Below, piece after piece: positions 40,902-50,910 of a stretch of DNA of 64,000 bases. The position numbers were made by a program, and so were the translations under genes. The stretch is from Pseudomonas sp. GD03919 (GTDB taxonomy: Bacteria > Pseudomonadota > Gammaproteobacteria > Pseudomonadales > Pseudomonadaceae). The stretch spans positions 1,178,001-1,242,000 of the forward strand of contig NZ_CP104582.1 of the NCBI RefSeq assembly GCF_029814935.1, read 5' to 3'. How positions within the stretch are numbered: the stretch's first letter is position 1; each line of letters opens with the position of its first letter. Below the pieces are notes generated by a model, which was not told the origin of the DNA, made no database searches, and was given only the letters and a program-made list of their open reading frames with translations.

Positions 40902-42736
40902 GTGCGCCCGGCACGGGCGCACTCCTGGAGGTGCAAGTCCTCCCGTGAGCTGGCCACAGCGAACGGAGCGAAGCGCAACTGCGGAAGGGCGACCGACCGT
41001 GGGGAGGAAGCGTGGAGCGTAAACCGTGAGCCGATGAACAAGAATCGGATACGAGGCACTGCCAAGCAGGGCGAGCGGGCTAGAAGCCGCGAAGCTCTTG
41101 TGGCCAAGGCGAGGTGGTGTAAATCCGGCGGTTGTGCGGTGAAGGAGTGTGTTCTTACCCGGGGAGATCTCGCCTCATGCCTGAAAGGGCGACGTGGAAG
41201 CACGGAGCGAGAAGTCAGCAGAAGCCATAGTAGCTGCTTGGTCAGGGCGAAGGGCTGAACGAGAAGGAGCGTCAAACGCCTTGTCGATGAGCGCTGTAAC
41301 GCATCAGATGCCCGCGCCAGCGGGGCGGGTCGCGGAACGGGAAGGTGAAGCCTTACCGAATGCGATCAGCGATGAAACAGGGCTCCCGCGGCGAGAACCG
41401 GAGGGCGCAGGGCGAAGCCTGCTTGAGCAGGCGTTCGCACGAGAGAATATGCAGCGGGCATGGAAGCGCGTGAAGTCCAACAAGGGATCGGCAGGTGTGG
41501 ACGGGCTGGATATTGCCCAGACTGCCGAACACCTGCGATGGGTGTGGCCGGAGCTTCGCCAGCAACTGCTGAGCGGCTCCTACCAACCACAACCCGTTCG
41601 TCGGGTAGGCATCCCGAAACCGGACGGCAGTGAGCGGGAACTGGGTATCCCCACCGTCACCGACCGTCTGATTCAACAGGCACTGCTGCAAGTGCTGCAA
41701 CCTCTGATTGATCCCACCTTCAGCGAGCACAGCCACGGCTTCCGCCCGGGCCGCCGGGCCCACGATGCGGTGTTGGCTGCGCAACGCTATGCCCAACAGG
41801 GCCGCCACATCGTGGTGGATGTCGACCTATCGAAGTTCTTCGACCGGGTTAACCACGACATCCTGATCGACCGCCTGAAGAGGCGCATAAACGATCCTGG
41901 AGTCATCCGGCTGGTTCGTGCGTACCTGAACGCGGGCATCATGGACGGCGGTGTGGTCATGGATCGGCATGAGGGCACGCCGCAAGGCGGGCCGCTCTCG
42001 CCGTTGCTGGCCAACGTTCTGCTGGACGAGGTGGATAAAGAGCTGGAACGTCGGGGGCACTGCTTCGCCCGTTACGCTGATGACTGCAACGTTTACGTTC
42101 GCAGTGAGAAGGCGGGAGAACGGGTGATGCGCCTGCTACGCCGGTGTTACAACAAACTGCGCTTGGTGATCAACGAATCCAAAAGTGCAGTCGCCAGCGT
42201 GTTCGGTCGCCAGTTCCTCGGTTATGCCCTGTGGCAGACGAGGGAGGGAGAGGTCCGACGCGCGGTATCAACGAAGGCGTTACAGGCGTTCAAGCTCCGG
42301 ATCAGGCAACTGACCCGGGGGTCAGGTGGTCGCAGCATGGCACAGGTGGTGGAGAAGCTCCGCAGTTACCTGCTCGGCTGGAAAGGGTACTTCAGGCTGG
42401 CACAAACGCCACGCATCTGGCGATCACTGGATGAGTGGATACGTCGCCGCCTGAGAATGCTCCACCTCCGGCACTGGCGACGGGGCAAGACGATCTACCG
42501 GGAGCTGATCCGCTTAGGCGCGAGTTCCTGGGTTGCGGAATCCGTGGCGGCGCTGAGCCGTCGCTGGTGGCATAACAGTCGATCTGCCATCCATAATGTG
42601 CTGACCATTGCCTACTTCGATCGGTTGGGAGTGCCGAGACTCTCGTGAAACCTCAACTTCTCGAACCGCCCGGTGCGGACCCGCATGCCGGGTGGTGTGG
42701 GAGGGGCGGAACTTATTGGTTCCCCCCTATCCCGAT
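40902..42736 (+). mobile_element. Group II intron (class C-like), inserted after the thrC terminator
   Basis: The 5' end GTGCGCCCGGCACGGGCGCA begins at 40902. The 3' part contains a recognisable domain V (ACCGCCCGG ... CCGGGTGGT with inner TGCGG ... CGCA, about 42664-42698) and a domain VI-like stem, ending CTATCCCGAT at 42736. The 1835-bp unit encodes one maturase. Insertion immediately 3' of an intrinsic terminator is the hallmark of bacterial class C introns, and the maturase lacks an endonuclease domain, which agrees. The exact ends are set by motif, not by comparison with an empty site. Confidence 0.85.
41287..42648 (+). CDS. ltrA: Group II intron-encoded reverse transcriptase/maturase
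   Basis: The 453-residue protein both helps its intron splice and copies it at a new site. The reverse transcriptase blocks are visible: GIPKPDGSERELGIPTVTDRLIQQ, HGFRPGRRAHDAV, DVDLSKFFDRVNHD, GTPQGGPLSPLLANVLLDEVD and the catalytic YADD of RYADDCNVYV. The maturase X domain follows (RRLRMLHLRHWRRGKTIYREL...). No HNH endonuclease (paired CxxC with His) is present at the C-terminus. The start is uncertain; a GTG at 41194 would extend it by 31 residues. Confidence 0.93.
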   Translation: MSAVTHQMPAPAGRVAEREGEALPNAISDETGLPRREPEGAGRSLLEQAFARENMQRAWKRVKSNKGSAGVDGLDIAQTAEHLRWVWPELRQQLLSGSYQPQPVRRVGIPKPDGSERELGIPTVTDRLIQQALLQVLQPLIDPTFSEHSHGFRPGRRAHDAVLAAQRYAQQGRHIVVDVDLSKFFDRVNHDILIDRLKRRINDPGVIRLVRAYLNAGIMDGGVVMDRHEGTPQGGPLSPLLANVLLDEVDKELERRGHCFARYADDCNVYVRSEKAGERVMRLLRRCYNKLRLVINESKSAVASVFGRQFLGYALWQTREGEVRRAVSTKALQAFKLRIRQLTRGSGGRSMAQVVEKLRSYLLGWKGYFRLAQTPRIWRSLDEWIRRRLRMLHLRHWRRGKTIYRELIRLGASSWVAESVAALSRRWWHNSRSAIHNVLTIAYFDRLGVPRLS

Positions 42737-42901
42737 TTGTGTGCATTTGTGGGTTAGGTGAGCGCTATGTGTTGGCCTGGTGATTCTTTCCCGACAATCA
42801 TTCAGGTCATTTTTTCCACGTTTCCTGTCCGAAATCTGTCTGTTTTCTATGGGAGGGCTGCCCTCTAATAAGCGCCGTAGACGCTTTTGATGGAGACAGC
42901 G

Positions 42902-43486
42902 ATGGGGCACTGGGAAGGCAGCATCAAGGTCACGAATGACGTTCGGCATGTCTCTCTGCGGTGGCTCGAGCGCATCGATCCGCAGGCAGCTGCTGCCATT
43001 GTCAGTCTGATCGACTGCACCGTCGAAGACGATGGAGTCCTGGGTTTTACGCAGGCGATGAGCGCCGGGCAGGCCCGTGAATTCTGTGTTGGCTTGCAGG
43101 CAGCCATTGATCGAGGCTGCGGCCATGCGCTGCTGGGCGAGAGCGTGGATGGCCCGGCGTGCTTTGTGATGATGACGCGTAGCGCCATGCCAAACTGCCG
43201 GCACCTCGCTGAGTTAACCAAGGGTGTGGTGCATCCGCACATGCGCGGTCATGGCTTGATACCGCAGCTCTTTCACGAAATCGTCCTGCGTGCTCGGCAG
43301 CTAGGCATCGAACGGTTGACCCTGGACGTCCGGGAAAACACTCGCGCACACAAGCTGTGGGGCCGTATGGGCTTCGTTTCGTTCGGTGTGCTGGAGGATT
43401 ACGCGCGTGTCGGCGAGACCAGCCACCGCGGTCACTACATGACTCAGCGGGTCTCAGACCTAGCCGCACGCCTCGCTCTGGACTGA
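42902..43486 (+). CDS. GNAT family N-acetyltransferase
   Basis: The 194-residue protein has the acetyl-CoA-binding motif A as GVVHPHMRGHGLIPQLFHEIVLRA, then LTLDVRENTRAHKLWGRMGFVSFG, the usual end of the GNAT fold. It would transfer an acyl group to an amine. GGAG lies seven bases before the ATG at 42902, which decides the start over ATG 42890. It is first in a run of five same-strand genes with short gaps (30 bases to the next). In that setting it could acetylate the pathway product or protect the cell from it. The substrate is unknown. The 165 bases between the intron and this gene show nothing recognisable. Confidence 0.85.
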   Translation: MGHWEGSIKVTNDVRHVSLRWLERIDPQAAAAIVSLIDCTVEDDGVLGFTQAMSAGQAREFCVGLQAAIDRGCGHALLGESVDGPACFVMMTRSAMPNCRHLAELTKGVVHPHMRGHGLIPQLFHEIVLRARQLGIERLTLDVRENTRAHKLWGRMGFVSFGVLEDYARVGETSHRGHYMTQRVSDLAARLALD

Positions 43487-43516
43487 CCCCGTAGTCATTT
43501 GACAAGGAGATAAACC

Positions 43517-44242
43517 ATGACCATGCCCCAGGAGCAGTTCAAGCGCGCTCTGCAAGACACCTTGCACCAGCACTTGACCATTTCTCACCCAATCTTTCTC
43601 GAGTTGCTCGACCCTCAGACGAAGAATCTTGACCTGTTGCGCAAGGTCGCCACGCAGGGTTATCAACTGACCAAGTATTTCCTGACCTATGTCGAACACT
43701 TGTTTTTCTACTGTCCGTCGCCCACCTACAAGCGTGCGCTGCTGATCAACTGCTATGAAGAGGAAACCGGTCGCCTGTCTCGTACCGACAACCACGTCAC
43801 TCTGATGCAGAACTTCATTCGCGCCCTCGGCGTCAGTGATGCGCAGCGCGATGCGGAAACTCCGCTCCCGGCCACCCAGCGGCTGATCGATTATCGTCTC
43901 GAGGCCGTGCGCGATCCGGCGCGTTATCACATCGGAGCGGCAGCGGTGATGATCGCCAGCGAGGGACAGAATCTGGAAACCGTTGCCGGCGATGCCCGCC
44001 ATGAGCTGCTGGGCAGGGCCTATGGGCTGACCGAGGAGGACTTGCTGTTTTTCTCGGTCCACCAGAAAGAGGACGTTGGTCACGTCAATCAGGGCTTGGG
44101 GCTGGTCAGCGAAATCTGTACTTCCGAGCAGATGCAGCATGAAGCACTGCAGGCCGTGGATCTCACCTGCCGGATGTTCTACGGCATGTACGAAGACATG
44201 TACCGCCATTACTGCAAGGCTCGTGTCGTCGTACCCGCCTGA
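43517..44242 (+). CDS. Haem-oxygenase-like diiron oxidase/oxygenase (TenA/PqqC/CADD superfamily)
   Basis: The 241-residue all-helical protein carries the full iron-ligand pattern of the HDO group. There is a Glu in NCYEEETG (residues 81-83) with His93, then Glu149 (MIASEGQN), then His182, Asp186 and His189 in VHQKEDVGH (H-x3-D-x2-H). Known members oxidise amino or fatty acids with oxygen to make alkenes, N-oxides or nitriles, or cleave C-C bonds (UndA, BesC, SznF, FlcE, CADD). PqqC and TenA share the fold but lack this iron set. A GGAG site precedes the ATG. It sits between a GNAT and an MFS gene, as expected in a natural-product cassette. Its substrate cannot be read from sequence. Confidence 0.85.
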   Translation: MTMPQEQFKRALQDTLHQHLTISHPIFLELLDPQTKNLDLLRKVATQGYQLTKYFLTYVEHLFFYCPSPTYKRALLINCYEEETGRLSRTDNHVTLMQNFIRALGVSDAQRDAETPLPATQRLIDYRLEAVRDPARYHIGAAAVMIASEGQNLETVAGDARHELLGRAYGLTEEDLLFFSVHQKEDVGHVNQGLGLVSEICTSEQMQHEALQAVDLTCRMFYGMYEDMYRHYCKARVVVPA

Positions 44243-44280
44243 TGCCAGCTCGCTGGCATATCTCATTGCGAGGAAAAACC

Positions 44281-45501
44281 ATGTCCAGACAACATAGCTC
44301 TGCCTTGGTGGCGGGTGTGCTCGCCGTTGGTTTTCTGGTGATGTTTCTGTCCAGTGCCATCAAGGGCCTTTACCAGGTGTACTTTGTCGATCTGGCGGCG
44401 CATTTCGGGGGTGGCCGTTCCGGTTTGGCTCTGGGGGGGACATTGTTTGTCCTGACCATTGGCCTCGCTTCGCCTCTGGTGGGAGGGTTGAGCGATAGGG
44501 TCGGGCCGTTGTGGACGGTGGTTGCCGGCAGTTTCTGTGGTGGCCTGGCATTACTGGGAGTCAGTCTGTTCGATCACAGTCTTACCCTGTTCATCCTGCT
44601 CTACGGTTTGCTTGGAGCCTTTGCCTTGGCGGCGATGACCTACGTGCCTATGGGTATCCTGGTGGATCGCATGGTCGGTGAGAAGTCCAAGGCCTTTGCT
44701 TTTGCCGTGGTTACCAACGGTACCGCCATCGGTTTCATCGTGCTGTCGCCACTATGGATCTGGTTGGAGCAATGGGTGTCCTGGCAGAGCCTGTTCAGTG
44801 TGATCGGCCTGATCTTCCTGCTGCCGCTGAGTGCAGCGCTGTTCTGGGTGGCCCGCCGCGTACCATTGGCTGCGCCAGCATCCGGTGTGGAGGGCAAGGT
44901 CTCGCTGAGATTTCTCCTGGGTGACCCGCGGTTCTTCGTGTTGGCGCTGAGCTTTGCCAGTTGCGGTGCGACCATGGCGTTCATCGACGTGCATTTGGTG
45001 CCTTACTGGCAGGGGCAGGAAGTGGTGCCATCGATACAGGCCAGCAGCTTGAGCCTGCTCGGTGTATTGGAGCTGATCAGTGGTCTGTTGGCCGGTTGGT
45101 TGGCGACACGTTTCAACAAGGGAGCCTTGCTGGCGGCGTTCTATCTACTGCGTTGTGCTGCTGTGGCGCTGTTGCTGGTGCAGCCGAGCACGCTTTCGGT
45201 GTACCTGTTCGCGATCATCTTCGGCGCCAGTTATCTGGGTACCGTGGTACTGACCTCGGCCTTTTGCTTCGACCTCTATGGGAGTGCGATCAAGGGCAAG
45301 GTATTCGGTGCGCTTTTCCTGGTGCATCAATTGGGCGCCATGGCCGTGACCCAGCTCGGTGCCATGGACTACGACCGCCACCAGAGCTATCAGATGACGG
45401 CACTGGTGCTCACTCTGGTGACCCTGCTGGCCGCTGGGCTGTCGCTGACTTTGCTGCCCTGGGGGCGGAGTGCGGCTGCTCGAGAGCTGGTCAGGAGTTG
45501 A
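44281..45501 (+). CDS. MFS transporter, 12 transmembrane segments
   Basis: The 406-residue membrane protein has two six-helix halves and the MFS motif A-like loop GGLSDRVGPLWTVVAGS between helices 2 and 3. It probably exports a small molecule using the proton gradient, or imports one. The start at 44281 (MSRQHSSALVAGVL) places the first helix right after a short polar tail, with GAGGA seven to eleven bases upstream. It lies 38 bases behind the diiron enzyme gene and 43 bases before the MetZ-like gene, so I infer that it moves the cassette product or precursor. Confidence 0.9.
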   Translation: MSRQHSSALVAGVLAVGFLVMFLSSAIKGLYQVYFVDLAAHFGGGRSGLALGGTLFVLTIGLASPLVGGLSDRVGPLWTVVAGSFCGGLALLGVSLFDHSLTLFILLYGLLGAFALAAMTYVPMGILVDRMVGEKSKAFAFAVVTNGTAIGFIVLSPLWIWLEQWVSWQSLFSVIGLIFLLPLSAALFWVARRVPLAAPASGVEGKVSLRFLLGDPRFFVLALSFASCGATMAFIDVHLVPYWQGQEVVPSIQASSLSLLGVLELISGLLAGWLATRFNKGALLAAFYLLRCAAVALLLVQPSTLSVYLFAIIFGASYLGTVVLTSAFCFDLYGSAIKGKVFGALFLVHQLGAMAVTQLGAMDYDRHQSYQMTALVLTLVTLLAAGLSLTLLPWGRSAAARELVRS

Positions 45502-45544
45502 AGCGTTTGATCACTTCACATCATCAGCAGAGGATGAGGAATTC

Positions 45545-46789
45545 ATGGATCACGATACGCCACACTCTCGCGATTTCGATGCCAGTGCGGCTCTGCATGT
45601 CGGCCGGGGAGAGGACTTTTCCGATACCTTCTGTGAGCCTTTGGCGATGACGTCCGCTTATACCTTCGCTTCGGCTCGTGATGCTTGGGAAAAGTTCACT
45701 GGCCAGCAGCCAGGCAATGTCTACAGCCGTTTTACCAATCCCACTGTGCGTGCCTTCGAGCGGCGTATCGCATCGCTCGAAGGGGCCGAAGATGCGGCAG
45801 CCTTCGCCTCCGGTATGGGGGCGATAGCCGGTCTTTGCCAGGCGCTGTTGAGCCAGGGCGAGAACATTGTCTGCAGCCGTGATGTGTTCGGTACAACCTT
45901 GAGTGCTTTGCGCAACTACATGGGCCGGTTTGGTGTCGAGGTGCGCCTGGTTGAGCTGACCGATCTGGATGCCTGGCAGCGCAATATCGATAGCAGGACG
46001 CGTCTGGTGCTGCTGGAGTCGCCGTCCAATCCGGTGCTGAAGATCGCTGACATCGGCGAAATCAGCCGCATCGCCCATGCCAAGGGGGCCTTGCTGGCGG
46101 TGGACAACACGATGCTCACCCCGGTTTTTCAGAGCCCGCACTGCCTGGGGGCGGATATGGTGGTGCATTCTGCCGGCAAATACATCGACGGTCAGGGGCG
46201 GGCGCTGGCAGGGGTGGTTACCGGCAGCGCCGCCCTGATCAGTGAGTTGCGTGGAGTACTGCGTACCCTGGGCATCTCGTGTAGTCCTTTCAATGCCTGG
46301 CTGCTGCTCAAGAGCCTGGAAACCCTCGAGGTACGCATGCAGCGTGTGGCCAGCAGCGCCTTGGAGTTGGCGCAGTGGCTGCGTGAGCAAGCTCTGGTGG
46401 AGGCGGTTTACTACAGCGGCCTGACCGAGCATCCGCAACATGCGTTGGCCTGTCGTCAACAGCGCGGCCATGGCGGCCTGCTCAGCTTTCGCATGAGTGG
46501 AGGGCAAGCGGCTGCCTGGCAGTGGATCGATGCGCTGCAACTGGTAGCGCGTTGTACCAATATCGGCGATACACGGAGCATGGTCACTCATCCGGCTACC
46601 ACCACGCATTGCCGCTTGACCTGGGAGGAGCGTCAAAGCGCTGGAATTCCCGATGGCCTGGTGAGACTGTCCGTAGGGCTTGAACGTCTTGATGACCTGC
46701 GTTGCGATCTGGCTCGGGCCTTCGCCGAAGTCGAGCATGGTCGGCGCCACTCTTCGTTGAGTGCGCTGTACCGGGGGCTGGCCTCTTGA
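45545..46789 (+). CDS. MetZ-like PLP-dependent enzyme (Cys/Met metabolism family)
   Basis: The 414-residue protein belongs to the cystathionine gamma-synthase superfamily and looks closest to O-succinylhomoserine sulfhydrylase (MetZ). It has YSRFTNPTVRAFE (Tyr60, Arg62), FASGMGAI, LESPSNP, the cofactor Asp187 (VDNTM) and the Schiff-base Lys212 in HSAGKYIDGQGR. The usual residue before this Lys is Thr (SATK), here Gly. It could perform gamma-replacement or elimination on a homoserine ester. The normal housekeeping MetZ would lie elsewhere, so this is probably a dedicated paralogue within the cassette. The last codons overlap the next gene. Confidence 0.88.
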   Translation: MDHDTPHSRDFDASAALHVGRGEDFSDTFCEPLAMTSAYTFASARDAWEKFTGQQPGNVYSRFTNPTVRAFERRIASLEGAEDAAAFASGMGAIAGLCQALLSQGENIVCSRDVFGTTLSALRNYMGRFGVEVRLVELTDLDAWQRNIDSRTRLVLLESPSNPVLKIADIGEISRIAHAKGALLAVDNTMLTPVFQSPHCLGADMVVHSAGKYIDGQGRALAGVVTGSAALISELRGVLRTLGISCSPFNAWLLLKSLETLEVRMQRVASSALELAQWLREQALVEAVYYSGLTEHPQHALACRQQRGHGGLLSFRMSGGQAAAWQWIDALQLVARCTNIGDTRSMVTHPATTTHCRLTWEERQSAGIPDGLVRLSVGLERLDDLRCDLARAFAEVEHGRRHSSLSALYRGLAS

Positions 46790-47010
46790 GCCAGGGGGCG
46801 TTGGTGTCGCTGAGCATCGGCGGGGTGATCTTGCTCTTGCAGGGGCTGGCATTGCTGGTTCTTGCGGGTGAAGGCTGGCGGCTGCCACGGGGGCTGTGGT
46901 GCTGGCTGCTACCGCTGACCGTCGTGTTGCTCTATCTGGTCGATCTGGCCCCGTTGTCCCAGGTGCTGCTACATCTGCAAAGTGATCTGCCGATGTTCTC
47001 CTGTTTTTAG
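46786..47010 (+). CDS. Small membrane protein coupled to the MetZ-like gene
   Basis: A TTG at 46786 overlaps the stop of the upstream gene (TTGA) and opens a 74-residue frame with a GGGGG ribosome-site-like run nine bases upstream. Two hydrophobic segments are visible (about residues 10-28 and 36-55). I recognise no family. The overlap suggests translational coupling, so it may belong to the cassette. GTG 46804 is another possible start. Chance coding is not excluded. The 121 bases from here to the GlxA-type gene show nothing recognisable. Confidence 0.5.
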   Translation: MSQGALVSLSIGGVILLLQGLALLVLAGEGWRLPRGLWCWLLPLTVVLLYLVDLAPLSQVLLHLQSDLPMFSCF

Positions 47011-47131
47011 AGGCATGATGATCCGTTCACGAGGGGTTCAAAAAACTGCCTCGATCTAGGCTTTCTGCTGCATCGCGCAGCGAGCGCACCGGTACGCCAG
47101 CAGCGTGGGGCGGTAGCCCCCCGATTGTGTT

Positions 47132-48097
47132 TCAGAGGGTTGCGGCTGATTTTCGATACTGCAGGGGAGGCAGAGGCATTTCCTTGCTCCAGGCCAGGCG
47201 AAAGGCTTGGCTGCTGCTGAAACCGCAACGTTCGGCGAGGGACTCGATAGGGATGCGCTGTTGCTCCAGCAACTGCTTGGCATGTTCCACTCGTAATTTG
47301 CGCAGGTATGCCTGAAGGGTTATGCCGGTGTTCTGGCGAAACAGCCGTGCCAGGTGGCGGTAGCTCAGGTTGAAGCGGCGGGCGACGTCCTCCATGGCAA
47401 GCGAGCTGGCAAACTGTTGCTCAAGATAGCTCTGTACCTCATGAATCAGTGGGTGGATGTGGTTGCGGGTCAGGTCGCGCATGCTCAACTGTGGATCATT
47501 GCCGGCGCGGCGGCGGTAGATCACCAGTTCCTGGGCCACGCGCCCGGCCTCGCTGCGGCCGAGCCGTTGGCTGATCACGTGCAGTGCCAGATCGATACCG
47601 GTGGAAACCCCGGCGGAGGTGTAGAGGTTGCCGTCTTGCACGAACAGATGGTTGCTCAGCACCTCCGCGAGGGGAAAGTGCTGCTGTAGCTGTTCCGCGT
47701 AACGGTGGTGGGTCGTGCAGCGGCGACCGTCGAGCAGGCCGGCTTGGCCGAGCAGAAAGGCGCCTGTGCAGATTGAACAGATCGCCAGGTCAGGCGTGTG
47801 GCTGGCGATTCGTTGCAGCCAGTGCGCGACTTGCTGCAGGATGCTTTGCTCGGCAGGGATTTGGGGTAATTTGTGGCCAATGACGAACAACAGGTCGCCA
47901 GCTTCGAGGCTTTCTGGCAGTGGCTCCAGCCCGGTCACACTGATGTTCTGGAAGCACTCGATCTGCGTTATCGGCCCGATGCAGCGGACGCATAACGGCG
48001 CCATGTCCAGTTCAAAACAGGTTGATATGGTTTGCAGCGGGCCTGCAAGATCGAGCAGATGAGTGTGGGGCAGTAGCAGGAACCAGACATTGCGCAT
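47132..48097 (-). CDS. GlxA-type AraC-family regulator (DJ-1/PfpI domain plus HTH)
   Basis: The 321-residue protein has an N-terminal DJ-1/PfpI-like ligand domain (about residues 1-185; VWFLLLPHTHLLDLAGPLQ, with Cys in AICSICTGAFLLGQAG and His in CTTHHRYAEQL) and a C-terminal double helix-turn-helix AraC domain (about residues 220-315; SSLAMEDVARRFNLSYRHLARLF; GFSSSQAFRLAWSKE). Relatives sense small amines or amino acids (GbdR, CdhR, ArgR of Pseudomonas). It is transcribed towards the cassette from the other side and is the most likely regulator of it. The ligand is unknown. Confidence 0.9.
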   Translation of the reverse strand: MRNVWFLLLPHTHLLDLAGPLQTISTCFELDMAPLCVRCIGPITQIECFQNISVTGLEPLPESLEAGDLLFVIGHKLPQIPAEQSILQQVAHWLQRIASHTPDLAICSICTGAFLLGQAGLLDGRRCTTHHRYAEQLQQHFPLAEVLSNHLFVQDGNLYTSAGVSTGIDLALHVISQRLGRSEAGRVAQELVIYRRRAGNDPQLSMRDLTRNHIHPLIHEVQSYLEQQFASSLAMEDVARRFNLSYRHLARLFRQNTGITLQAYLRKLRVEHAKQLLEQQRIPIESLAERCGFSSSQAFRLAWSKEMPLPPLQYRKSAATL

Positions 48098-48354
48098 CGG
48101 TACTTCCTTGTCGGCAATAATAAAGTGCAGGGCAGGGTGTTACCACTTTCTGCGGTCAACAGGACGGTATTCTTAAAGCATGAAACGGGCCAGGGTTTGC
48201 AAAAAAGGCTTGCTCTGCCATAGCTCCGACGGTCGCTCAGCACTCCGGTATGAGTTCGTTCAGGCTGGCTGGAGTCGGTGAGCGATTTTGCAGCATGCGA
48301 CGTTACACTCAGGGAAGTTCGCTGCGTTGGTGAAGCCGACGCCCAGATCAAACT

Positions 48355-48482
48355 GTGTGAAAACTACTGCGCTCGGCCATGCTGCGTTAAAAAACGGCTC
48401 AAAGTGCTCATTTACAACTCGTAAACCGCGCTTTTTCGCCGTTTTTTGCCTTGCCTGACCTGCGCTCGCTACGTTTTCACGC
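48355..48482. repeat. Hairpin repeat element, copy B
   Basis: The ends GTGTGAAAACTACTGCGCTC and, reverse-complemented, GCGTGAAAACGTAGCGAGCG are related inverted repeats. The interior GCTGCGTTAAAAAACGGC ... CTCATTTACAACTCGTAAAC ... GCCGTTTTTT matches copy A at 37717-37970 but with a compensated stem (ACGGC/GCCGT instead of CAGGC/GCCTG). The 421 bases between the GlxA-type gene and the next gene hold this repeat and nothing else I recognise. Confidence 0.75.
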
Positions 48483-48518
48483 GGTCTGCAAGTGGCTCGG
48501 GTTTCGTTTGTGGCTGGC

Positions 48519-48773
48519 TCAGAGCGCGAAGATCAGCGCCAGGAGCGCCATCAGGACGATCAGTATCAGCCAGGCCAGGGCGTTGAGGCGACTGGCGCGC
48601 ACAACGGCTGGGCCGCGCATGTGTACGGGTGGATCGTCCTCCAGGTACTGATCGATGCGGCGTTCGGCTTCCTTCTGGTCGTTTGCCAGGTATTCGCTCA
48701 GCAGATCGATGGCTGCCTGGCGCTGCTTGGCATGCAGCAGTTGGCGTACGGCCGGGGGGAGTTCGTCAAGCAT
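48519..48773 (-). CDS. Small protein with C-terminal membrane anchor, function unknown
   Basis: The 84-residue protein starts MLDELPPAVRQLLHAKQRQAA, has a charged middle (NDQKEAERRIDQYLEDDPP) and ends with one hydrophobic helix (ALAWLILIVLMALLALIFAL), so it is probably tail-anchored in the inner membrane. AGGAT lies eight bases before the ATG at 48773, which supports this start; a GTG at 48839 would add 22 residues. The upstream side was separated from its original neighbour by the IS66 insertion. The family is not recognised with certainty. Confidence 0.7.
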   Translation of the reverse strand: MLDELPPAVRQLLHAKQRQAAIDLLSEYLANDQKEAERRIDQYLEDDPPVHMRGPAVVRASRLNALAWLILIVLMALLALIFAL

Positions 48774-48898
48774 GCGGCCGATCCTCTTGATCAGGTGAGC
48801 GTCAGTCAGTCCGTGCTGGTGGCGACTGTTGGTCGGCACCTGATGTCGTCACAGTGGCGTAACCGCTCCATAAACCCCGTCCTGGCGGACGGGTTTTT

Positions 48899-50440
48899 TC
48901 AGGAAGCAGAGGCAGAAGCTGGCGAGCAGTTCCACGGCAGCAGCGCTTCGTAATCCTCGACACTACTGGCGGTCGGCAGGCGTTCAAGGATGTGGCGCAA
49001 CCAGGCGTAAGGCTCTTGCCCGTTGGCTTTGGCAGTTTCGATCAGGCTGTAGATCTGCGCGCTGGCCGTGGCACCCTTGGGCGTGTCGCTGAACAGCCAG
49101 TTCTTGCGGCCGATGACGAAGGGACGGATGGCGTTCTCGGCGCGGTTGTTGTCGATCGGTAGATGCCCGCCTTCGATGTAGCGCACCAGCCTGCTCCAGT
49201 TGCTGGCCAAGTAGTTTACCGCCTTGCCCAGGGCCGTCTGCCCAGCGACCTGCGGCTGGGTTTTGTCCAGCCAGGCCTTGAGTTGGTCGATCAGGGGCTG
49301 GCTGCGTTGCTGGCGGACGTCGAGGCGTTCGCTATGGTCAGCGTCCTTCAGGTCACGCTCGATGCCGTAGAGCTTGTTGATCAGGCTCAGCGCCACGTCG
49401 GCACGCCCAGTCTTGCCCTTGGGCTGCACCTTTTGGGCTTCGACGAACTTGCGTCGCGCATGCGCCCAGCAGCCCAGCCGTTCGATGCCGTCGCGTGCAG
49501 CCACGGCGTTGTAGCCGGCGTAGTCGTCGGTCATCAGGTAGCCGCGGTAGCCATCGAGCAGGCGTAGCGGCACCTCCTGCGCGCGGCTGGCTGTGTAGTC
49601 GAAAAGGATCACCGGCTTGTCCGGCGGCCCACCGCTTTGCACCCACATCCAGGATTGTGCCGAGGGGTCGCGCCCCGGTTCATGCAGCACCTGTAAGCGC
49701 GTTTCGTCGCAGTGCAGCACGGGGTATTCGAACAGTTTGTCGCGCATCAGGTTGAGCAGCGGTTGCAGTTGCTCGCCACTTTGGATCACCCAACGCGCCA
49801 GGGTCTGGCGTGGGATGTCGACGCCGTGGCGGCTGAGCATCTTTTCGAAGCGGTACAGCGGGATGCCGTCGGCGTACTTGGTGGTCAGCAGCATCGCCAG
49901 CACGCTGGGGCTGGCCAGGCTCTTCTCGATCAGTTGGGCCGGCTTGTCGGCGGTGACCGGCGCGGTTTCACAGGCCTTGCAGGCATAGGTCTTGCGGATG
50001 TGGCGGATGACCCGCACCTGCATCGGGATGATCTCCAGCTGCTCGCTGGTCTCCTCGCCGATCACCTGCTTGCAGGCACCGCAGGCGCAGGTGCGCTCAT
50101 GCTCGGGCAGCTCATGGATGACCTCCATACGCGGCAGGTTGGCCGGCAGCGGTTTGCGCTTGCCACGACGCTTGACCGGGACAACGACTTCTTCGGCTTC
50201 GGCTTCGGCTTCGGCTTCGCTTGGCGCAGCGGCCGCTTCGATCAGCTCTTCGGCCTCGTTGAACATGGCCAACTGCGGCGAGTCGGCATCTTCAGGGCTG
50301 CGCTCGGACTTGGGCGAGAACAGCTTGTGGCGCAGCAAGGCGACTTGTTCCTGGAGTTGCGCCACCTTTCCCTGAGCCAACAGCAGCATCTGCTTGAGCA
50401 GGACGGGATCGTCGGGAAGGTTGTCGGCGCCAAATTTCAT
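48899..50440 (-). CDS. tnpC: IS66 family transposase TnpC
   Basis: The 513-residue protein has the IS66 layout. An N-terminal leucine-zipper-like coiled coil comes first ([23 protein letters not shown]), then an acidic [10 protein letters not shown] stretch, a zinc-finger segment ([23 protein letters not shown]), and the DDE transposase core ([56 protein letters not shown]). The C-terminal IS66_C domain is present. It appears intact, so the element may still move. Confidence 0.96.
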
Positions 50441-50459
50441 GGCGCCGGATTATACCGGC

Positions 50460-50819
50460 TCAGGCCACGTAACGCGGCGTCAGAACCTGATGCGGACGGT
50501 TACGCCACAGGTCGATACCGTCGAGCAGCCAGTTCAGCTCGTCGACCGTCAGTTCGATGGCTTCGTCACCCGCATCGGGTTTGGTCTTGAAACGCTCAGC
50601 TTCCAGTCGCTTGAGCCACAGGCAGAAGCCATTGCGCTCCCAGTAGAGAATCTTGACCTGACTGCGGGTGCGATTGAGGAACGCGAACAGCACCGGGTTG
50701 AACACCTCCACCTTGATGTCCAGCTCGACCAGCGCGGCCAGTCCGTTGATGGATTTGCGGAAGTCGACGGGCTTTGGGTAGAGATAGACCTTCTGCACTT
50801 GGGCGTCGGGACGCATCAT
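50460..50819 (-). CDS. tnpB: IS66 accessory protein TnpB
   Basis: The 119-residue protein has the IS66 Orf2 pattern VYLYPKPVDFRKSINGLAALVE and LYWERNGFCLWLKRLEAERF. It is needed with TnpC for transposition in studied IS66 elements. It lies 19 bases upstream of tnpC on the same strand. The name refers to the IS66 accessory gene, not to the RNA-guided nuclease of IS200/IS605. Confidence 0.94.
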   Translation of the reverse strand: MMRPDAQVQKVYLYPKPVDFRKSINGLAALVELDIKVEVFNPVLFAFLNRTRSQVKILYWERNGFCLWLKRLEAERFKTKPDAGDEAIELTVDELNWLLDGIDLWRNRPHQVLTPRYVA

Positions 50820-50910
50820 GACGGAACTCCACGGGAAAATAGGGAGCCCAGCATCCGGGATACGGAGAGGTCAGTTGAAGATGGGGTCTATGGAGCGCAT
50901 ACACAGTGGC

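Follow-up and report, generated by a model that had tools for sequence, protein, structure and literature searches.

Few heme-oxygenase-like dimetal oxidases/oxygenases (HDOs) have an assigned reaction, about a dozen according to a 2026 review (PMC13108848), the main text of which makes no mention of homoserine, nicotianamine or acetyltransferases. Here we analyse a 64,000-nucleotide stretch of Pseudomonas sp. GD03919 (contig NZ_CP104582.1, positions 1,178,001 to 1,242,000; hereafter the window), which carries a cassette encoding an HDO together with a GNAT acetyltransferase, an MFS transporter, a MetZ-like pyridoxal-phosphate (PLP) enzyme, a small membrane protein and a GlxA-type regulator. 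Described systems resemble this cassette in part. The beta-ethynylserine pathway likewise joins an amino-acid HDO (BesC) to a PLP enzyme of the Cys/Met family (BesB); however, BesC matches the cassette HDO weakly (E=0.05), and the halogenase and ATP-grasp ligase of that pathway are absent among the window cassette genes. The p-aminobenzoate synthases CADD and NePabS belong to a folate context, whereas the cassette HDO lies in an operon and scores 82.4 bits on TIGR04305 against a cut-off of 200. LolC and Fub7 (fungal homoserine-ester gamma-replacement enzymes) share both the family of the cassette PLP enzyme and the reaction type that we propose for it, and we know of no HDO or GNAT partner for either. 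Staphylopine- and nicotianamine-type metallophore systems (that is, CntL and nicotianamine synthase, NAS) share an aminocarboxypropyl transfer family with some relatives of the cassette, some of which also carry MFS or ABC transporter genes, but the opine dehydrogenase of staphylopine-type systems was not found among the scanned cassette neighbours, which have an HDO and a GNAT instead. From staphyloferrin B biosynthesis, finally, an SbnA-like enzyme recurs in one relative (locus L030), with no SbnB among those of its neighbours that were scanned.

Clusters containing an HDO are already known, and the present gene set, with its exchangeable transferase, looks new. No paper on this set was found in the full-text literature searched (which holds few subscription journals and was judged by titles and the beginnings of abstracts), nor was there, among the matches listed, a paper containing both 'heme oxygenase-like' and 'nicotianamine synthase'. 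We propose, with a probability of roughly 0.6, that this is a biosynthesis and export cassette in which the PLP enzyme would transfer an aminocarboxypropyl group, the HDO oxidize, the GNAT acetylate, the MFS protein export and the GlxA-type protein control expression. As judged from genomic comparison, the genes co-operate, and a variable partner slot beside the HDO and GNAT genes points to the transfer reaction. The features of the cassette are as follows.

42826..42847, plus strand: putative operator upstream of the operon, with a TGTCCG box and a second TGTC box
42902..43486, plus strand: GNAT acetyltransferase, tabtoxin-resistance-like (PF00583)
43517..44242, plus strand: HDO-type dimetal oxidase/oxygenase (PF14518, 70.5 bits, cut-off 28.9)
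44281..45501, plus strand: MFS transporter, presumed exporter (PF07690)
45545..46789, plus strand: MetZ-like fold-type I PLP enzyme, putative 3-amino-3-carboxypropyl transferase (PF01053, 407 bits)
46804..47010, plus strand: small membrane protein (no Pfam match; similar short open reading frames elsewhere)
47132..48097, minus strand: GlxA-type regulator, DJ-1/PfpI domain and AraC helix-turn-helix (PF01965, PF12833, PF00165)

All six genes that an earlier note had read from the letters of this DNA are present and open where it had placed them, and the short same-strand spacing that it described was borne out, with measured gaps of 30, 38 and 43 bases between the GNAT, HDO, MFS and PLP genes. 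The overlap that it saw between the PLP gene and the small membrane reading frame need not exist: the likeliest start of the latter is the GTG at 46804, 14 bases after the PLP gene, because a similar short frame starts there in Pseudomonas L102 (read by eye). Short frames resembling it occupy the corresponding position in L102, L004 and L005 (again by eye), and its BLAST matches comprise only L102 (E=4e-4) and identical copies.

Co-conservation, the check that the earlier note had set for its cassette idea, was assessed in 42 loci encoding the HDO subfamily, obtained from one scan of species genomes; genes were counted by tblastn with the window proteins and by profile searches. The GNAT profile included fusion proteins and also matches HDO frames; GNAT counts are those of tblastn, and fusions were called from frame checks and Pfam. 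A GNAT accompanies the HDO in 41 of the 42 loci (the exception being L039), a MetZ-like PLP gene is present in 29, and among these 29 the MFS gene occurs in 28 and the GlxA-type regulator in 26. All five genes (GNAT, HDO, MFS, PLP and regulator) are together in 26 of the 42 loci, always in the order GNAT-HDO-MFS-PLP, in Pseudomonas, Burkholderiales, Iodobacter, Bacterioplanes, Marinobacter, Methylobacter, Aliivibrio and Acinetobacter. Three further loci additional to this set (L102, L103 and L104) have all five genes, and L105 to L108 are contigs already in the set. Chance neighbourhood is ruled out by this co-conservation across loci. Mirror-tree correlations of 0.87 to 0.97 (25 loci, without species-tree control and without L003 and L021, which are near copies of the window) count as weak evidence. 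A dienelactone-hydrolase family hydrolase (PF01738 in L005, with a signal-like N-terminus by eye) accompanies 12 of the 29 PLP-type loci and is absent from the window cassette. Genomes encoding this HDO are sparse, at 8 of 398 in the genus and 2 of 398 sampled from the phylum (the present genome included in both), and 3 of 399 in an order reached through L030 (start genome included); the HDO cassettes reach at least Pseudomonadota, Actinomycetota, Bacteroidota, one myxobacterium and one cyanobacterial metagenome-assembled genome (MAG).

The partner of the HDO is MetZ-like in 29 loci, NAS-like in 9 and SbnA-like in 1, with none within the flank in 3; no locus has two slot enzymes, and the MetZ-like and NAS-like types occur together in 0 of 42. 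The NAS-like partners score 51.8 to 69.8 bits on PF03059 in all nine loci (cut-off 27.1), and the closest solved relative of the L037 member is thermonicotianamine synthase (E=2.8e-21), followed by CntL (6e-5), whose model it matches with 22.8 against a cut-off of 350. For the three loci without a slot enzyme in the flank, namely L033, L039 and L040, the genome encodes a NAS-like protein at another site: on another contig for L033; about 67 kb away, apparently on the same 464,523-base contig, for L040, in which a non-ribosomal peptide synthetase (NRPS) module lies upstream of the HDO; and, for L039, as the L037 copy, which is the sole NAS-like match of the MAG that the two loci share. The SbnA-like enzyme of L030 adjoins the GNAT (320 bits, equivalog cut-off 350), and a genome-wide search found no NAS-like gene in that genome. 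The slot families transfer an aminocarboxyalkyl group from O-acylhomoserine, S-adenosylmethionine or O-phosphoserine to a nucleophile, and the nucleophiles of nicotianamine synthase and SbnA are amines. Given that three enzyme families occupy one slot, each adjoining or fused to the same GNAT, we suggest that they share one task, and that an amine nucleophile is likelier than sulfide because nicotianamine synthase and SbnA join amines. Both Streptomyces loci further contain a gene for a MetA-like homoserine acyltransferase between the PLP gene and the GNAT (family established for L029), and NRPS genes are found in the loci of some relatives. The earlier proposal of an amino-acid- or sulfur-derived small molecule therefore stands strengthened as to biosynthesis, by the NAS-like and SbnA-like replacements and the MetA-like and NRPS genes, and weakened as to a sulfur-derived product.

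The slot also bears on a variant in which, as in the logic of SbnA and SbnB, a glutamate conjugate is no more than an intermediate, from which oxidative cleavage by the HDO releases a diamino acid for the GNAT to acetylate; this would be 2,4-diaminobutyrate, except in the SbnA-like locus, where it would be 2,3-diaminopropionate. The L030 partner would suit this, as would the kinship of the NAS-like partner to thermonicotianamine synthase, which uses glutamate; yet the route would be costly given that a common aminotransferase readily makes diaminobutyrate, we know of no HDO that cleaves a conjugate oxidatively, and we regard the variant as distinctly improbable. An azetidine synthase role for the NAS-type relatives was also considered and is not favoured, as they match PF03059 (compared by family, without a motif scan) and AzeJ, according to PMC11794875, belongs to a different methyltransferase family; there, AzeJ and VioH are described as MT1-type enzymes with the motifs FY, PFNxxGN and RxxYYxxC.

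The cassette PLP enzyme itself is close to, and distinct from, the MetZ of the same genome, to which it is 55% identical. On TIGR01325 (MetZ, cut-off 510.05) it reaches 475.2 bits, against 646.4 for the genome's other copy, and on PRK08133 it reaches 504 bits (cut-off 522). A MetZ above the cut-off is likewise found in 8 of 11 other cassette genomes (L029 was outside this check). In a FastTree phylogeny that combined 28 cassette enzymes with 9 MetZ and 6 other paralogues, 27 of the cassette sequences, those from Streptomyces among them, form one clade (support 0.99), and the MetZ sequences form a separate one (support 1.00). Residue 211, which precedes the catalytic K212, is Gly in 25 and Ala in 3 of the 28 cassette enzymes, Thr in all 9 MetZ, and Thr or Ser in all 6 others (tree and residue counts omit the near copies L003 and L021). 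The earlier note had held that its cassette idea would fail were each gene to have a closely matching housekeeping orthologue of known separate role; for the PLP enzyme this is not so, and a housekeeping MetZ duplicate is ruled out by the separate MetZ (646 versus 475 bits) and the enzyme's own clade. We infer that the enzyme is an aminocarboxypropyl transferase, probably one that forms C–N bonds. The competing reading is that its chemistry is still of the sulfhydrylase type, sulfide or a small thiol being the co-substrate, and that the HDO oxidizes the resulting thioether, to give a sulfur amino acid. Its nearest family is indeed MetZ, as the PRK08133 score and the identity to the genome's own copy attest, but its replacement by NAS-like and SbnA-like enzymes (neither of them known as a thiol alkylator), the distinct clade, altered at the position next to the catalytic lysine, and the MetZ already present in the genome make a sulfur product unlikely.

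The HDO belongs to its superfamily by its PF14518 match and by a ligand set of three histidines and three carboxylates: E82, H93, E149, H182, D186 and H189 are invariant both in 41 and in 26 sequences, the equivalence to ligands being drawn through an alignment to CADD. The sacrificial residues of CADD (Tyr27 and Lys152) have no counterpart: in all 26 cassette HDOs compared, columns 27 and 28 lack Tyr and column 160 lacks Lys (2 of the 26 have Lys one column earlier, at 159), and p-aminobenzoate synthesis is ruled out by these columns together with the TIGR04305 score. The VIA-align rows lack several HDOs (for example, SznF and AetD), and nothing is excluded thereby. Relatives of this HDO are often annotated as PqqC or TenA; we reject these functions, as the names have source annotations as their only basis. 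A second HDO-type protein is encoded in the genome (L001, G000:C1:1339567-1340070, minus strand; a 227-residue frame, PF14518 E=9e-30), where it adjoins AMP-ligase-like and short-chain-dehydrogenase-like genes (by eye or weak BLAST matches).

Gene fusions tie the GNAT to each biosynthetic enzyme. The PLP enzyme is its fusion partner in L035, the NAS-like enzyme in L041, L042 and L043, and the HDO in L027, L028, L033 and L040 and in the database proteins P0065, P0090, P0092 and P0107 (for P0065, as read by eye alone); the GNAT portion falls under the Pfam cut-off in L027, L033, L040, L041, L042 and P0090. The cyanobacterial MAG locus L038 joins HDO, NAS-like and GNAT domains in one 744-residue open frame without internal stop and with all domains above cut-off; every fusion locus was checked for its reading frame and for freedom from stops. 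Around the HDO, GNAT and NAS core, the bigger related clusters L041, L043 and L033 add a KAS III-like enzyme and an AMP-ligase, and L041 also a small carrier-like protein, an amidohydrolase and an ABC transporter. In the Aliivibrio cassette, a phytanoyl-CoA-dioxygenase-like gene (L032:12209-13117), possibly for extra tailoring, lies between the hydrolase and the regulator. A profile of 23 GNATs has as its best structural match the tabtoxin resistance protein (1ghe, E=1.4e-19; next 4.6e-7). Of the two GNAT roles put forward earlier, tailoring or self-protection, protection is consistent with this match, whereas the fusions hint instead at a step in the pathway.

The regulator qualifies as a GlxA-type (DJ-1 and AraC) protein with PF01965, PF12833 and PF00165 all above cut-off. 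In the 26 five-gene loci it lies upstream and divergent in 12 (sharing the promoter region), downstream and convergent in 12, and downstream on the same strand in 2; in the window it is convergent with the operon. The motif TGTC[CT]G occurs upstream of the GNAT in 13 of 21 cassette regions, against a mean of 2.1 and a maximum of 6 in 200 shuffles, a contrast that relatedness among the regions inflates (L006, L007, L008 and L012 are omitted from the count). As a rough control, it was seen in none of the 8 examined among 16 regulator-less loci. Two TGTC boxes stand 21 or 22 bases apart in L011, L012, L016, L034 and L044 (L011 and L012 being near-duplicates), a spacing that would be compatible with an AraC-type dimer. 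A motif common to regulator-bearing cassettes fits regulation by the GlxA-type protein through the putative operator. Stand-alone DJ-1/PfpI proteins akin to the GlxA sensor domain are encoded at L022:8726-9316 and L035:8710-9282, where the regulator is absent, and the DJ-1 domain may thus have a role of its own.

Regulator and GNAT are also what a catabolic or detoxification cassette could call on, in which the MFS protein would import an amino-acid analogue, the GNAT inactivate it, the HDO and PLP enzyme degrade it and the GlxA-type protein sense it: the nearest NCBIfam models of the regulator are FtrA and GbdR (the latter named for choline metabolism), the GNAT resembles a resistance protein, and some Cys/Met-family enzymes are gamma-lyases. 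However, the relatives carry biosynthetic MetA-like, NAS-like and SbnA-like enzymes, carrier proteins, ligases and NRPS modules, and we consider degradation quite unlikely.

Under the preferred biosynthesis and export reading, the MetZ-like enzyme would take O-acyl-L-homoserine, probably O-succinylhomoserine from methionine biosynthesis, and pass the 3-amino-3-carboxypropyl unit of this ester to a nucleophile, for which an amino-acid amine is the likeliest candidate, to give an N-(3-amino-3-carboxypropyl) compound. Using O2, the HDO would oxidize either the conjugate or its acceptor; the GNAT may acetylate an amine, for protection or self-resistance, and the MFS protein would send the product out of the cell. 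The GlxA-type protein may sense a precursor or the product and activate the operon through a TGTCC-type site. As the product we expect a small non-proteinogenic amino acid that would act as an antimetabolite or a metal chelator. At even odds, in our estimate, stands the broader proposal of an undescribed natural-product family, in which a constant HDO and GNAT combine with any of three unrelated enzymes that move an aminocarboxyalkyl group to an amine, the MetZ-like enzyme forms C–N bonds and the HDO performs a new oxidation on the conjugate.

Several points weigh against the biosynthetic reading. Sulfur nucleophiles are the rule for MetZ and its relatives, and the amine chemistry of nicotianamine synthase and SbnA is background from the literature. 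In 3 of the 11 cassette genomes no separate MetZ is above the cut-off, and the cassette enzyme could there serve methionine synthesis too; support for the cassette clade is only 0.68 once L035 is added (28 sequences), and a clade-specific residue alone does not show a changed reaction. The chemistry of an HDO is not predictable from sequence. GlxA-type regulators often control catabolism, 8 of the 21 upstream regions are without the TGTC[CT]G motif, and two components, the small membrane protein and the hydrolase that 12 relatives carry, as yet fit nowhere in the scheme.

As part of the same explanation, the cassette is probably a horizontally acquired, self-contained biosynthetic and export block. 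The cassette occupies the same thrC site in P. indoloxydans (L003) and P. mendocina EF27 (L021), with 99.7 to 99.9% identity to window positions 42737-48858, and in the near relative G012 about 50 bases separate thrC from the next conserved small gene; acquisition as a block is drawn from these same-site copies and this short gap. In the relative G008 (L064), no sequence matching the window was found downstream of thrC, which counts neither for nor against an empty site. Two mobile elements flank the cassette in the window.

40905..42736 (about), plus strand: group II intron, outside the cassette (reverse transcriptase/maturase 41194-42648; absent from L003 and L021)
48859..50901, minus strand: IS66 element, outside the cassette (transposase 48899-50440; absent from L003 and L021)

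The earlier placement of the block between these elements holds; both are nevertheless secondary and did not bring it, since L003 and L021 have the cassette beside thrC and lack both, which marks them as later insertions and rules out transport of the cassette by either. The T-run of the thrC terminator immediately precedes the intron, a position typical of class C introns, to which it may belong. Besides this copy of the cassette, P. indoloxydans has another, different one (L004; HDO 74% identical), and the HDO was found in no plasmid record of the collection searched.

In summary, the cassette would represent a small, complete and transferable pathway of a few genes, in which the variable slot reveals the type of bond made before or after the HDO step. 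It could bring to light an amino-acid antimetabolite or metallophore not described before, a new C–N-forming PLP enzyme and new diiron chemistry and, if the proposal is true, genes now named PqqC or TenA, together with the MetZ-like genes adjoining them, are something else.

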